From the NCBI RefSeq assembly GCF_036013525.1, contig NZ_CP107853.1, forward strand, positions 12,462,001 to 12,526,000: a stretch of 64,000 nt of DNA. Direction: 5' to 3'. Below are positions 24,329 through 29,293 of the stretch, one piece after another; position 1 is the stretch's first letter, and every line of letters begins with the position of its first letter. Below the pieces are notes generated by a model. It worked only from the letters and a program-made list of their open reading frames with translations. It had not been told where the DNA came from and ran no database searches. The position numbers and the translations under genes are program-made. The DNA is from Nonomuraea sp. NBC_00507 (GTDB lineage Bacteria; Actinomycetota; Actinomycetes; Streptosporangiales; Streptosporangiaceae).

Positions 24329-24490
24329 GGTGCGGTACCCGTCTTCGGTTGTGGATCTTACCGAGACGAGACGTTAGCCCGCTGTCATGACGATGTCTGA
24401 CAAATCAGTAAATCGGCAGTGAAGTCCAGCCGAACGACATATCCAGGGCTGTGCGCGCCCTGCGACCGACGGATGGTTCGCCTTCCAGGA

Positions 24491-25408
24491 CTACAACCAC
24501 GCCTCATCACGAGGATCGACGACAGCGAGATCATCGGCAATTCCACCGGCGGTCGCCTGGATCAGACCTCCTACAGAGCTCTCCGCCTGCATGGCAGCTT
24601 TGAAGAAGTCCATCGAGCCAGCCCTTCCGGCCTTCTTGTATGCGAGGGCCAGCTCGTATGCCGCATTGACCAGTTGGAGACCGCGCACCCGGAGGGCAGC
24701 GGCCTCAGGAACCTTGCCCATGGCCCTGCCCTTCCAAAAAACCGCCATATCCCGCCAGTAGGCCGCCTCTTCCCGACCGTTGTCGCTACTCTCCAGTCCG
24801 ATGGCCTCGCACGCCAGCAGTACGGCTACTTCGTAGGCAGCCCGAGCGTCCCCATCCTCAGCCTGCTTGAGCCGTCGGCTGCCCAGACGGCCCCAACTGT
24901 CCGGCATGCGCCGGACTAGCAGAGTAGTCCTCCGCGAAGGCCCTTCCCCGTGAGCCGGGCCCAGGACGTCACCTTCGATCTCGTTGCTCGTAGGCTCTGG
25001 CTCTGCACCGCCGCTATGTGGGGCAGCGTAGGTCTGCGGTGCGGATAAGCCACCTTCCTCGTCCTCCTTTGCGGCCTGCCACAGCTGAGCGAACTCCTTC
25101 AGCAGGGACTCTTGGGCAGCAATATCGAGATTCGACTTGGTGGCGATGCGGTGACACACGACCACCAGCGTGCGTACGAGCCACCAGTCAGGAGTCCTCT
25201 TGTACTTGCCGCTGATCAGGTCGCAGGCGGTGGCTCGTGGGAGATGCCTGAGCCAGTGACCGTCCTCCTCCTCAGCCTCCGCGATGATGCGCTCGGCCTC
25301 CCGAGTGAGCGTCTGATATGACGGCTGGCCCGCTTCGACGCTGTACAACTTTCTGATCCGCGTCGCGAGTAGCGCTAGGCGGGTACCACCTGGGCTGGCT
25401 CCAGTCAT
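24491..25408 (-). CDS. Uncharacterised accessory protein with helical, Sel1-like C-terminal half
   Basis: About 305 residues. The N-terminal 90 (ALLATRIRKLYSVEAG, PSYQTLTREAERI, DLISGKYKRTPDWWLV) resemble the helical, HTH-like leaders found on many actinobacterial signalling and conflict proteins. An acidic linker follows. The C-terminal half has TPR/Sel1-like helices (QAEDGDARAAYEVAVLLA, EAAYWRDMAVFW, NAAYELALAYKK). The ATG at 25408 is used; an upstream ATG at 25645 would read through a tRNA-like remnant and is unlikely. GC3 is lower than the neighbours, consistent with transfer. No family name is certain. Confidence 0.65.
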   Translation of the reverse strand: MTGASPGGTRLALLATRIRKLYSVEAGQPSYQTLTREAERIIAEAEEEDGHWLRHLPRATACDLISGKYKRTPDWWLVRTLVVVCHRIATKSNLDIAAQESLLKEFAQLWQAAKEDEEGGLSAPQTYAAPHSGGAEPEPTSNEIEGDVLGPAHGEGPSRRTTLLVRRMPDSWGRLGSRRLKQAEDGDARAAYEVAVLLACEAIGLESSDNGREEAAYWRDMAVFWKGRAMGKVPEAAALRVRGLQLVNAAYELALAYKKAGRAGSMDFFKAAMQAESSVGGLIQATAGGIADDLAVVDPRDEAWL

Positions 25409-25770
25409 GATCCAACCTGTTTCGGGATCGAAGGCCCGTTTAGGGACGAAAGGGGGCAGGCCGACGCGGAGGAAAAGTGCACTCTGCCGTTCGGCCTGAG
25501 AGGTAACTATGGTCCCACAGGTCAGTCTCAAGGGGGTTCGCCACGCTAGGCATGGCATACCCCACTTGGCCGATTTACTCCGAGACTTCCGGTGGCGTCC
25601 GGCGGCATCCGGAGCCGAGACCTTCTCATCCGGCGACGATTCCACCCCATCCGGGGTTTGATCAACGCAAAGTGTGAGGACTCACGCTCTGCTACTCGTA
25701 CTCCTATGACACTCTGTTCAGGGCTCAGACGCGGTAAGTACGGGGTCGCCACTCAAGAGGAGAACGAGGC
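25409..25770. other. Intergenic stretch with a tRNA-like remnant
   Basis: No coding sequence is supported here. On the complement around 25585-25625 the bases ccggatgagaaggtc, then CGGC-TCCGGAT-GCCG, resemble the 3' half of a tRNA: variable region, then a T-arm with a 4-bp stem and 7-base loop. The loop lacks the canonical TTCRA, and the acceptor stem is not complete, so it would be a decayed fragment. tRNA 3' ends are usual attachment sites for integrative elements. The rest holds the promoter region of the small gene at 25771. Confidence 0.35.
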
Positions 25771-25971
25771 GTGAGCAAGGCGAACCTCATCTGGTGGGCC
25801 GTCGCAGGTGCCCTGCTCTCCCTCTTGATCGGCGTTGTCGGCGCCCTGCTTGCCCTCGGCAATGGGGACGTGGTCACCGAAGCGGTCATCTTCGGCGCAA
25901 AGGCAGCAGGAGGCTGCGCGGGACTATGGATCGCGGCTACCGCAGCCATACATGCAGTACTCAAACGGTAG
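25771..25971 (+). CDS. Small two-helix membrane protein
   Basis: 66 residues from a GTG preceded by AAGAGGAG about 9 bases upstream, a good ribosome site. Helix 1 covers about residues 8-29 (AVAGALLSLLIGVVGALLA) and helix 2 about 42-62. It ends with LKR. No family is recognised. It lies in the accessory block near the GHKL-nuclease gene. Confidence 0.65.
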   Translation: MSKANLIWWAVAGALLSLLIGVVGALLALGNGDVVTEAVIFGAKAAGGCAGLWIAATAAIHAVLKR

Positions 25972-26698
25972 ATCGCCAAGAACGTCGACAATTGTTCGGC
26001 TTCCCAGACGTGATACACCCTTGCCTGTTCATTCGGCAGGCGGGGGTGTGTCAGTTTGCTGCCCCGTGCGGTCGTAGCCTCGTCGAAGCTGGCCGAGGCC
26101 AGGAAGCGATCTGGTGGAAGCCGATGCCACGTCCGTCCGGCGAGCCGGGCGGACCGTGGCTGAGAACCGCATTATCGGGCCTGACTCCGCATTCCTGGAG
26201 GGAGTGCGGCTCTTGGGCCACCGCCCCGCCGGACGCTGTCCCGCTGGTGTGGACACCGATGGGGGCGGGGACCAGGCGCCGGTCAAGCACCCGGCGGTGA
26301 CTGAACACTGCCGTCCGATTATCTTCAGTTGCAACCGATCGGCTCAGAGAACCAACCACCGTTCCCAGTGTTACACCGGCCGGCGCGGCCGGTCGATCTT
26401 GAGGCGATGCGAAGCGCGCAAGACCAGGCCGCTCCCTCACGCGATCGAAGACCCGCTCCGGCTTGACGATCAAACCCCTCCACCTGCCTCGGAATATACA
26501 GAGCTACCCTTCCCAGAAGTACACTTCTATATGGCAGCACCGGCGTAGTTTCAGGCCGGGACCCAGATCTCGTCGCACAGCAACATTCCGCTGACGGGTT
26601 CGTCGTTCACGCCGTGTCCCTATGACGGGCGCGACTCGGACTCCCCTGGAAGGGCGGGTTCTCAGACACGCGACAGGCCTCTGTACTCGCGGCGTGGA
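25972..26698. other. 727-bp region without a supported intact gene
   Basis: Only low-quality frames are seen, with no codon bias or ribosome site. On the complement at about 26555-26618 a short open stretch reads GVNDEPVSGMLLCDEIWVPA then stop, with natural-looking composition but a stop codon just upstream (about 26620). It looks like the tail of a decayed gene. The rest appears non-coding. Confidence 0.5.
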
Positions 26699-28636
26699 TC
26701 ACCTCGCCACGACCGCATCGGGCACTACTTCTCTATGCACCCGCTGGAGATATTCCACGGCATGCTCCGAGGCGGGATCATGGTTCAGCCGCTCTCGATA
26801 GAAGTGAAGCCGATCTTCACAGTCGTCGATGATCTCGCACCACGTTCGAGCCCAGATGCGAACCCCTCCCTCCCACTCGGCGATGCAGCCGGGTGGACGA
26901 TTCGGCGCACTGGCATCCCGCCTTACGATGTCCGCCATCTCAGTGGAGACCACCCAGAAGTCCCATGAAACGCGTACGTCCCGGAACTGCGGATCGCTGA
27001 CGATCGCCTCCGCATAGCTCTTGATTTGCGCTACCTCCACCTGGCCGATCTTGACGTTGGGCGCCTTGAGTTCGACCACAAGGTGTTCCCGCCCGGAACT
27101 CCCCCGGTGTGCGCGCCCAAGGAGGAGATCGACGATGCCCGCCCGTCCGTCCTCTCGGCGCACCGGATTCAGTTGGCCGTTTTCCGGCTCTCGGCCCAGT
27201 TCCTTGAGATGGCGGGCCAGGACGGCGTCCAGGCTCTGATCGCTGATCATCAGGGAGTAAGCATCCCCGAAAATCCACGTCTCACGCTCGAGTATCTTGT
27301 GCAGCTCGCTGCGTTCCTTGACGGTCCGGCTGATCTCGGGCTCGAAGACGAGCTTCTTCAAGGCCGCCAAGAAGTCGAGCCGATCACTGACGTGCCCCGT
27401 TGCCTTGATCACTTCCGAAAGGCTCGTCCGCTGCAGGATTCGCTTGAGCTCTTCCTGTTCCGATTGGGACAGCCGGAACAACTCATCCAGCACCGGGTAC
27501 AGTCCGCTTGGATTCCGGGAAATGATCTCCCGGAGGAGCCGCAGGGTGGTCTTCTTGCTCTGCGTCACGCCTGGGAGACGCCGCGAGATCCTCGTAGCCA
27601 CTTCGTCGAACATCTCACGTTCGACCGCTTGCGCGGGCTCGGCCGGCTCCTCGGAATATGGATAGACGCCCTCGTTCTTCCACTCCTGAATGAGCCTGGC
27701 CCGGCGCTCTTGATCGCGTCTCTTGAAGTGCGCACGCAGTGTCTCGCGCGCCAGCGCGAGGAGGGGCCCGATTTCGTCCATCTCCGCCAGCGGCAGGTCG
27801 TCCCTTCGCTCGACGAAGCCATCCCAGAGCAGATAGGCGGTGAAGTGATATCCGGGCGCCTGAATGCCCGGCGAAGGTTCATCCAGCACGACACCGTTGG
27901 CATCGCAGAGAGCGAGCACCCGCCCGACGTCCTTCGGCCATTCAATGACGCGTAGCACAGGGTCGGCCGCCACGTCCGGGGCAGGCCAGGGCACTTGATA
28001 CTCGGCCATGTCCGTCCACACAGTCGACGGGTCCAGGGCCGTGCCCTGATAAGCGATCCGCACATCCAGATTGGCTGCCAGGAACGGCGCGAAAATCGAG
28101 GCCAACTGCTGAGCGATGTCGTCCTGCGTGAGCCGAGTAACGAAGTCCGCCGGGACCGACGCCTCTACACGCGTGCCGCAAGGCGCCTTCACATATTCCG
28201 GCTCCGATATATCGAAATCGGCAGGTCGATCTACCGCCCCGCTGATGACAGTTCGTTCGATCCGGCCATCTGCCGCCTGCGCCACCGTGACCCATCGGAC
28301 CTGCTCGCCGAGTGCAAAAGCGCGGAGGCGACCTTGCCCACTGCGCCCGTGGAGCCCCCGCTTCAGCACCGGCGAGACCTTCGCGCTGGTCTTCCAGGAC
28401 CCACCCAAACCGCCGAAGTAATTCGCGCAGGAGGCGTTCGGCATGCCGTGGCCGTCGTCCGTGATACGGACCGACTCCACACCGCCCAGTTCGTTGACCT
28501 CGAGATCGACGCTGACGACGCTCGCCTCCGCGTCGAGCGCGTTCCAGATCATCTCCGCCACCGCGCCCACTGGGTCCTTCTGCTTGGCCAGGCGCAGCAG
28601 ATGGTCCGGCTTGGCCTCGATGTGAACGGTACGCAC
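26699..28636 (-). CDS. GHKL ATPase fused to a Shedu-like PD-(D/E)XK nuclease domain
   Basis: 645 residues. The N-terminal part is a GHKL (MutL/Hsp90/MORC-type) ATPase: EMIWNALDAEA (N box, Asn32), ITDDGHGM (58-65, G1) and GRSGQGRLRAF (97-107, lid/G2). A long helical middle follows (about 280-460). Near residue 470 HKILERETWIFGDAY resembles the start of the DUF4263/Shedu domain, then IVDLLLG (Asp503) and VVELKAP (Glu522, Lys524) give the D...ExK nuclease site, with a conserved-looking Gln537. Shedu is an antiphage nuclease family with varied N-terminal sensors. The GTG at 28636 has a GATAGT box 6 bases upstream (leaderless). Defence is inferred; the ATPase may gate the nuclease. Confidence 0.8.
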   Translation of the reverse strand: MRTVHIEAKPDHLLRLAKQKDPVGAVAEMIWNALDAEASVVSVDLEVNELGGVESVRITDDGHGMPNASCANYFGGLGGSWKTSAKVSPVLKRGLHGRSGQGRLRAFALGEQVRWVTVAQAADGRIERTVISGAVDRPADFDISEPEYVKAPCGTRVEASVPADFVTRLTQDDIAQQLASIFAPFLAANLDVRIAYQGTALDPSTVWTDMAEYQVPWPAPDVAADPVLRVIEWPKDVGRVLALCDANGVVLDEPSPGIQAPGYHFTAYLLWDGFVERRDDLPLAEMDEIGPLLALARETLRAHFKRRDQERRARLIQEWKNEGVYPYSEEPAEPAQAVEREMFDEVATRISRRLPGVTQSKKTTLRLLREIISRNPSGLYPVLDELFRLSQSEQEELKRILQRTSLSEVIKATGHVSDRLDFLAALKKLVFEPEISRTVKERSELHKILERETWIFGDAYSLMISDQSLDAVLARHLKELGREPENGQLNPVRREDGRAGIVDLLLGRAHRGSSGREHLVVELKAPNVKIGQVEVAQIKSYAEAIVSDPQFRDVRVSWDFWVVSTEMADIVRRDASAPNRPPGCIAEWEGGVRIWARTWCEIIDDCEDRLHFYRERLNHDPASEHAVEYLQRVHREVVPDAVVAR

Positions 28637-28764
28637 ACGGCCACTATCCCAGATGACGTGCGGAATCGCCCGTAAGATCGCTGGAAGCGAGATGTCTGCC
28701 GGCCGCCCTGCAATCAGAGCTTGGACATGTAGGTCGCAGCCGTACGCCTGATCGCGGGCCGACC

Positions 28765-29115
28765 TTGGTGCCCATCGCGGCGGTTACCGCTGTTCGGGTA
28801 CGAACGTCGCGGCCCCTCCCACATCGACCACACTGCCGGCAACAAAGAATCGCGCAGTTTCTTCGTAGGGCTGCGAGCCGCCGCCGATGCCTTGCGATCA
28901 TAATCTTGGTCGCGGCCATCGTCGCACTGGCCGCTTTCTGCATCGGGCGCGAATCGGGCGATAGCCGGGGCGAAGCCCTCAAAACAGCGGGAAGAGCATT
29001 TTTCGTAGTCCTCGGAATCGGCGCAACGCTACTGATCGCAGCCGCGGCGTTCAGGTCCTGGGATCGCCCAGCAAGCCCGGCCGCGACCGGCCCGGAGTTC
29101 ATCAACAGCAGATGA
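28765..29115 (+). CDS. Possible small two-helix membrane protein
   Basis: The frame from a TTG/GTG at 28765 gives 116 residues, of which the last 75 look real: helix 1 (LAIIILVAAIVALAAFCI), a charged loop GRESGDSRGEALK, helix 2 (FFVVLGIGATLLIAAAAF). The basic first 40 residues may be untranslated, with a TTG at 28906 as a later start. It is divergent from the GHKL-nuclease gene and ends at the stem-loop 29132-29157. No ribosome site is clear. Confidence 0.4.
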   Translation: MVPIAAVTAVRVRTSRPLPHRPHCRQQRIAQFLRRAASRRRCLAIIILVAAIVALAAFCIGRESGDSRGEALKTAGRAFFVVLGIGATLLIAAAAFRSWDRPASPAATGPEFINSR

Positions 29116-29131
29116 CGCAATGACGGGACGC

Positions 29132-29157
29132 GGGAGCCCGCCGACAGCGGGCTTCCC
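29132..29157 (+). terminator. Stem-loop downstream of the small membrane gene
   Basis: gggagcccgc (29132-29141), loop cgaca, gcgggcttccc (29147-29157): a 10-bp stem with one bulged T. It follows the 28765-29115 frame and supports that being transcribed. Confidence 0.65.
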
Positions 29158-29247
29158 GTCCATACGTCGGCATCCGCCTCTCCAATCGGGCCTCTCACGG
29201 AACAGACACGGAGCAGTGATCGTTCAGGTCACGGTCACAAGACAACG

Positions 29248-29279
29248 AACCTCGCCTCTGCCGGTCAGCAGGCGAGGTT
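29248..29279. terminator. Bidirectional stem-loop after the acyl-CoA dehydrogenase gene
   Basis: aacctcgcc (29248-29256) pairs with ggcgaggtt (29271-29279), loop 14 bases. On the plus strand it runs into TTT; on the complement it follows the acyl-CoA dehydrogenase stop at 29294. Confidence 0.7.
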
Positions 29280-29293
29280 TCCGCATGTCAGGG

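Follow-up and report, generated by a model that had tools for sequence, protein, structure and literature searches.

A 64,000-nt stretch of the chromosome of Nonomuraea sp. NBC_00507 (contig NZ_CP107853.1, positions 12,462,001 to 12,526,000; hereafter the window) carries on its minus strand a gene for a protein that joins a GHKL ATPase to a nuclease domain. We conclude that the gene probably forms a defence system by itself; its product, a predicted nuclease of the GHKL-PD-(D/E)XK kind similar to paraMORC3 and GHKL-Shedu proteins, would act against phages or other invading DNA. An earlier interpretation made from the letters of the DNA (the sequence-only reading) had proposed an ATPase fused to a Shedu-like nuclease and, by extension, a single-gene defence system. 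The former is supported by the predicted fold and by a profile match to the GHKL-Shedu family. The latter agrees with the mobile, patchy, one-gene distribution of the homologues, while the defence activity itself is assigned by analogy with relatives.

Conserved ATPase and nuclease motifs in the predicted fusion protein

The open reading frame (ORF), which encodes 645 aa, starts with GTG and represents a real gene (Table 1). A search of about 5.8 billion proteins yielded up to 437 homologues at E≤1e-3, 120 of which are listed, and 88 of the listed homologues were aligned with the window protein (alignment A1, 89 sequences). A scan of a genome collection gave 307 related stretches, ranked by similarity to the actinobacterial query, and the best 80 were kept as loci with home-made, approximate gene calls. 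The second alignment contains 77 proteins, namely the window protein and those of 76 loci, as L039, L056, L058 and L078 lack a usable gene call. Because the patterns used to fetch the loci contained nuclease motifs, conservation of the nuclease is free of this bias in A1 only.

Across A1, the GHKL residues E28, N32, D35, D60 and G62 and the lid glycines G97, G100 and G102 are invariant. The same is true for W454, F456 and G457, for D503, E522 and K524, for Q537 and Y541, and for E441, the candidate first E of an E-D-ExK motif. In the second alignment, the lid glycines and D503, E522 and K524 are kept in 77/77 proteins and E28 in 75/77, the exceptions being one Q and one N-terminally incomplete protein. 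The coordinates and motif positions given in the sequence-only reading were right, far beyond chance; both the GHKL set that it had described as complete (Asn32, DDGHGM and the lid GRSGQGR) and the nuclease core D503...E522-L-K524 preceded by the ERETWIFG segment are borne out by the invariance of their key residues in A1.

In the predicted structure, an ATPase module resembling those of MutL, Hsp90 and MORC is followed by a helical middle region, and a PD-(D/E)XK nuclease domain forms the C-terminal part. The N-terminus matches Pfam HATPase_c_3 (E 2.4e-14), and residues 7-321 of the model, comprising the GHKL domain and the S5 (transducer) domain, align with the ATPase modules of TRAP1/Hsp90 and MORC in a structure search, in agreement with the GHKL assignment of the sequence-only reading. 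The nuclease domain was modelled with a predicted local distance difference test score (pLDDT) of 86 and a predicted TM-score (pTM) of 0.82. VIA-align superimposed this model on NucS, Shedu and FokI, with the best Z for NucS, and Pfam HSDR_N_2 matches residues 515-545 below its cut-off. Foldseek alone gave no match for the nuclease domain at E≤0.001, and the nuclease profile found no credible match among PDB sequences. The C-terminus does match PD-(D/E)XK folds in the structural alignments, so the objection that the sequence-only reading had raised against itself, a C-terminus unlike this fold, falls away.

Table 1. Positions in the window of the fusion gene, its encoded domains and the surrounding block.
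Feature	Position	Strand	Basis
GHKL-PD-(D/E)XK fusion protein, 645 aa	26699..28636	-	ORF, homologues, conservation
GHKL ATPase + S5 (transducer) module, residues 7-321	27674..28618	-	model, structure search
Helical middle region, residues 322-429	27350..27673	-	secondary structure of predicted model
PD-(D/E)XK nuclease domain, residues 430-645, W454xFG, D503, E522-L-K524	26702..27349	-	model, VIA-align, conservation
4.84-kb block absent from same-species genome G514	24450..29293		genome comparison
Second atypical ORF of block	24491-25645	-	GC3 0.694

Relationship to GHKL-Shedu, paraMORC3 and NucS proteins

The term Shedu-like in the sequence-only reading was right in kind, given the fold and the profile match described below, but the family model of the Shedu nuclease was not matched. 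Pfam PF14082 (SduA_C/DUF4263) gave no match at E≤1 in the window protein or in any of 60 nuclease domains of the family and also failed on 7/7 more distant members scanned, and the Shedu models of PADLOC do not recognise the window protein, which limits the Shedu-like assignment. Genome searches with PF14082 yielded three GHKL-Shedu proteins. One of them (L118) scored 27.2 bits, just over the SduA_C cut-off of 27, and the other two (L119 and L107) scored 21.6 and 22.2 bits, under it; among the 120 relatives listed for L118, 14 have PF14082 in their precomputed annotation. The SduA_C model is weak on GHKL-Shedu proteins in general.

Comparisons beyond this model point to a clear relationship. 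In BLASTP, the window protein matched L118 in the nuclease (4e-7) as well as in the GHKL part (5e-7), and L107 in the GHKL part (4e-8), its nuclease being not significant (0.097). By hhalign, A1 aligned with the family of L118 (alignment A3, 47 sequences) end to end over 554 columns (99.8%, E 1.4e-27, 18% identity), so that the two families are collinear over their whole length, and the nuclease alone also aligned with A3 (97.8%, E 7.7e-13). A3 in turn aligned with canonical Shedu (A5, 18 sequences; 97.1%, E 7.7e-11), whereas the direct match of the window family nuclease to canonical Shedu was weak (72%, E 3.4e-5, 67 columns). Canonical SduA proteins, represented by those of E. coli (8ps4/8ps5) and B. 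cereus (8ti8/8ti9), differ from the window protein by another N-terminal domain and by the SduA_C match that it fails. In an unrooted tree of 53 proteins, a branch with support 100/99 separates the window group (39) from the GHKL-Shedu group (14); the branches of this tree are long, that of L107 being the longest. These sequence comparisons suggest that the window protein is related to GHKL-Shedu proteins and, judged from its relatives, would work like them, although we do not file it as a member of Shedu.

The best structural Z for NucS raised another explanation, a non-canonical DNA repair enzyme in which a MutL-like ATPase is fused to a NucS/EndoMS-like mismatch nuclease. We rejected the NucS assignment on the basis of profile comparison and distribution. 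The nuclease profile matched a shallow NucS alignment (10 sequences) at 3.5% in contrast to 97.8% with the GHKL-Shedu family, the genome already contains a NucS gene, and the gene studied here is patchy, absent from a genome of the same species and present on plasmids and in phages. NucS_C gave no match in the window protein and 1/60 among its relatives at 0.001, and the MutL model TIGR00585 scored 32.9 bits over residues 22-71 versus a cut-off of 180. A role in repair is therefore very unlikely, and a defence nuclease remains the preferred interpretation.

The architecture has been described before. Iyer et al. (2008; PMC2292703) defined paraMORC3 as GHKL and S5 domains with a C-terminal restriction endonuclease (RE)-fold domain (E-D-ExK), with some members standalone and sporadic. 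By this description, the window protein has the GHKL motifs, the S5 domain and the C-terminal RE-fold with E-D-ExK. The 2008 family was described as prevalent in proteobacteria and Bacteroidetes, whereas 60 of our best 80 loci, obtained with an actinobacterial query, belong to Actinomycetota. VcSduA of Vibrio cholerae, a GHKL-Shedu protein, is classified as Shedu type I-D, and VcSduA-like proteins were formerly called paraMORC3 (PMC12137116). The same paper states that VcSduA blocks phage, that E27A in the ATPase and K557A in the nuclease each abolish defence, and that the protein is a predicted dimer with a clamp-like cavity. VcSduA resembles the window protein as a single gene with N-terminal GHKL motifs I-IV, a middle region and a C-terminal PD-(D/E)XK domain, but it is reported with DUF4263, the model of which does not match the window protein.

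A literature search on GHKL antiphage nucleases, paraMORC and actinobacterial Shedu found no account of this clade in titles and abstract openings, subscription papers being largely outside its reach. The concept is already known, as the architecture dates from 2008 and a Vibrio relative is proven to be antiphage. We therefore regard the window protein as a divergent form of an already described kind, a sound and conceptually unsurprising finding; what is new is a separate, divergent clade that is frequent in Actinomycetota and missed by the standard models used here.

Mobility, distribution and neighbouring genes

The gene lies in a block that is absent from G514, a genome of the same species. 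In G514, 22 bp separate the two flanks, in place of the 4,844 bp of the window (24450-29293), and no match to the gene was found. The G+C content of the block is 0.633 versus 0.689 for the window. The sequence-only reading had remarked on a lower G+C content at third codon positions (GC3), and the value of the gene (0.765) is indeed lower than that of any of the 47 called genes of the window that reach 450 nt (median 0.927, lowest 0.822). Because of these values, the composition favours gain in this strain over loss in G514. We found no direct repeat of at least 14 nt at the two ends of the block and no excess of promoter-like or terminator-like signals over shuffled sequences within it. The second atypical ORF of the block matches neither a Pfam family above cut-off nor any PADLOC family; among 54 genomes of the genus, it has matches at E<1e-50 in three other genomes, two of them with internal stops. 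At positions 26073-26365 of the window lies one copy of a dispersed repeat, about 290 bp long, which shows sharp ends and single-base indels in three aligned copies and looks non-coding; more copies, most of them 80-91% identical, are located elsewhere in the genome and in several related genomes.

In the 53 genomes of the genus searched, including its own, the gene has five complete-looking copies and three that are truncated, split or fragmentary, and three further genomes have weak GHKL-type matches only. Of the degraded copies noted overall, that of Nonomuraea glycinis (L039/L014) consists of two pieces separated by about 6 kb, L009 is a short fragment, L007 is N-terminally incomplete and the Streptomyces locus L056 has a broken frame in the approximate gene call. 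In 12/12 close loci (L027-L038; Nonomuraea, Sphaerisporangium, Streptosporangium, Sphaerimonospora, Sinosporangium and Actinomadura), DNA similarity over the gene stops at about 26688-28691; two of them have separate matches about 8 kb off, in an acyl-CoA dehydrogenase gene. As the similarity is restricted to the gene, it appears to move alone, as a one-gene unit.

This boundary also bears on a type II restriction enzyme of the BbrUII/HgiDII kind, that is, a GHKL N-terminus and a nuclease whose host DNA is protected by a cognate methyltransferase. The likeness resides in the N-terminus: NCBIfam NF050001 matches best at residues 26-179 (E 3.2e-14) and PADLOC REase_II at residues 25-124 (E 1.5e-7). 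The NF050001 stretch lies within the ATPase part and scores 52.4 bits, far below the family cut-off of 550, and no methyltransferase was found among the nine neighbouring window ORFs scanned. In the 12 close loci, the shared DNA does not extend past the gene, so it is not accompanied by a partner in them. We rejected this restriction-modification (RM) assignment on these three grounds and regard it as highly improbable.

By record title, 60 of the best 80 of the 307 stretches are from Actinomycetota; Cyanobacteria, Myxococcales and Acidobacteria are among the sources of the others. Relatives were also found on plasmids (46 records, 36 of them covering at least 80% of the query), on 21 IMG/VR viral contigs and in two Pasteurella phages. 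Homologues confined to housekeeping repair operons, which the sequence-only reading had named as evidence against itself, are not what we observed, as the homologues are patchy and mobile. The gene might instead serve competition among mobile elements, with plasmid or prophage exclusion rather than host defence against lytic phages as the main role. Conjugative or mobilizable plasmids account for 24 of the 46 records, one plasmid carries its relative within the transfer region, and in both phages the relative is a lone gene amid structural genes. However, the window copy is chromosomal, no family was found for the single other ORF scanned in the block, and the tested Vibrio relative VcSduA protects against phages (PMC12137116). 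We thus consider such a primary role unlikely and favour defence of the host.

Apart from DUF4097, the scan of nine neighbouring ORFs in the window gave metabolic genes or ORFs with no family above its cut-off, and no fixed partner gene was found among the neighbourhoods surveyed. Defence genes stand beside some relatives. In six Streptomyces loci (L050-L054 and L056), a type I HsdR-like protein and a YgjP-like peptidase are encoded directly upstream (assigned by Pfam in L050 only). A Type ISP enzyme overlaps the relative on a Phaeobacter plasmid, Drt2, Dcm and LlaMI adjoin that on a Psychrobacter plasmid, and an abortive infection family protein is encoded next to that on a Bradyrhizobium plasmid. 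We opened 14 plasmid and phage regions (12 of the 25 plasmid matches listed and 2/2 phages), two of which are without annotation. Of the 12 annotated regions, three contain a gene named as RM, antiviral or abortive-infection, three contain a helicase only and six contain neither. Housekeeping genes also adjoin some relatives. In six other Streptomyces loci (L046-L049, L070 and L091), the relative adjoins genes for the ribosomal proteins S10, L3 and L4, judged by appearance and, for S10, by Pfam; this may be a shared insertion site.

For the survey of defence islands suggested by the sequence-only reading, 179 neighbours (at least 100 aa and within two genes) from 55 loci chosen of the 80, some contributing none, were scanned with PADLOC at E≤1e-10, with 110 of 239 proteins six or more genes away as controls. 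Near-neighbour matches include, among those listed, GajA/GajB (Gabija), GmrSD_N and others. Enrichment over control neighbours was not shown (143 and 125 family rows near versus 119 for the control, counted as rows and not as distinct proteins), and we claim none because near and far sets both match many defence models and distinct proteins were uncounted.

Proposed mechanism and significance

The Shedu protein of E. coli recognises the ends of DNA and introduces nicks at a set distance from the end, according to a review (PMC12904381) of the work of Loeff et al. (2025). For the window protein, we propose that it would dimerise through its N-terminal GHKL domains on binding ATP and thereby close around DNA. 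A feature of foreign DNA, either its topology or, as with E. coli Shedu, its ends, may then be sensed by the middle region and would license two paired PD-(D/E)XK domains to nick or cut the DNA. More speculatively, the family could form a separate Shedu-like clade, borne by phages and plasmids in many phyla and unrecognised by SduA_C, whose GHKL domains load topologically onto foreign DNA before cutting and thus go beyond end-sensing; we hold this extension to be possible but doubtful.

GHKL-gated nucleases tie bacterial immunity to MutL, topoisomerases and the MORC silencing proteins of eukaryotes. A protein such as the one described here would offer a single-chain system for studying how ATP-driven DNA clamping licenses cutting. 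Among the 120 matches listed, the source names, where given, are mostly 'ATP-binding protein' or 'hypothetical protein', and the clade, with up to 437 proteins, is a possible pool of unannotated defence genes.
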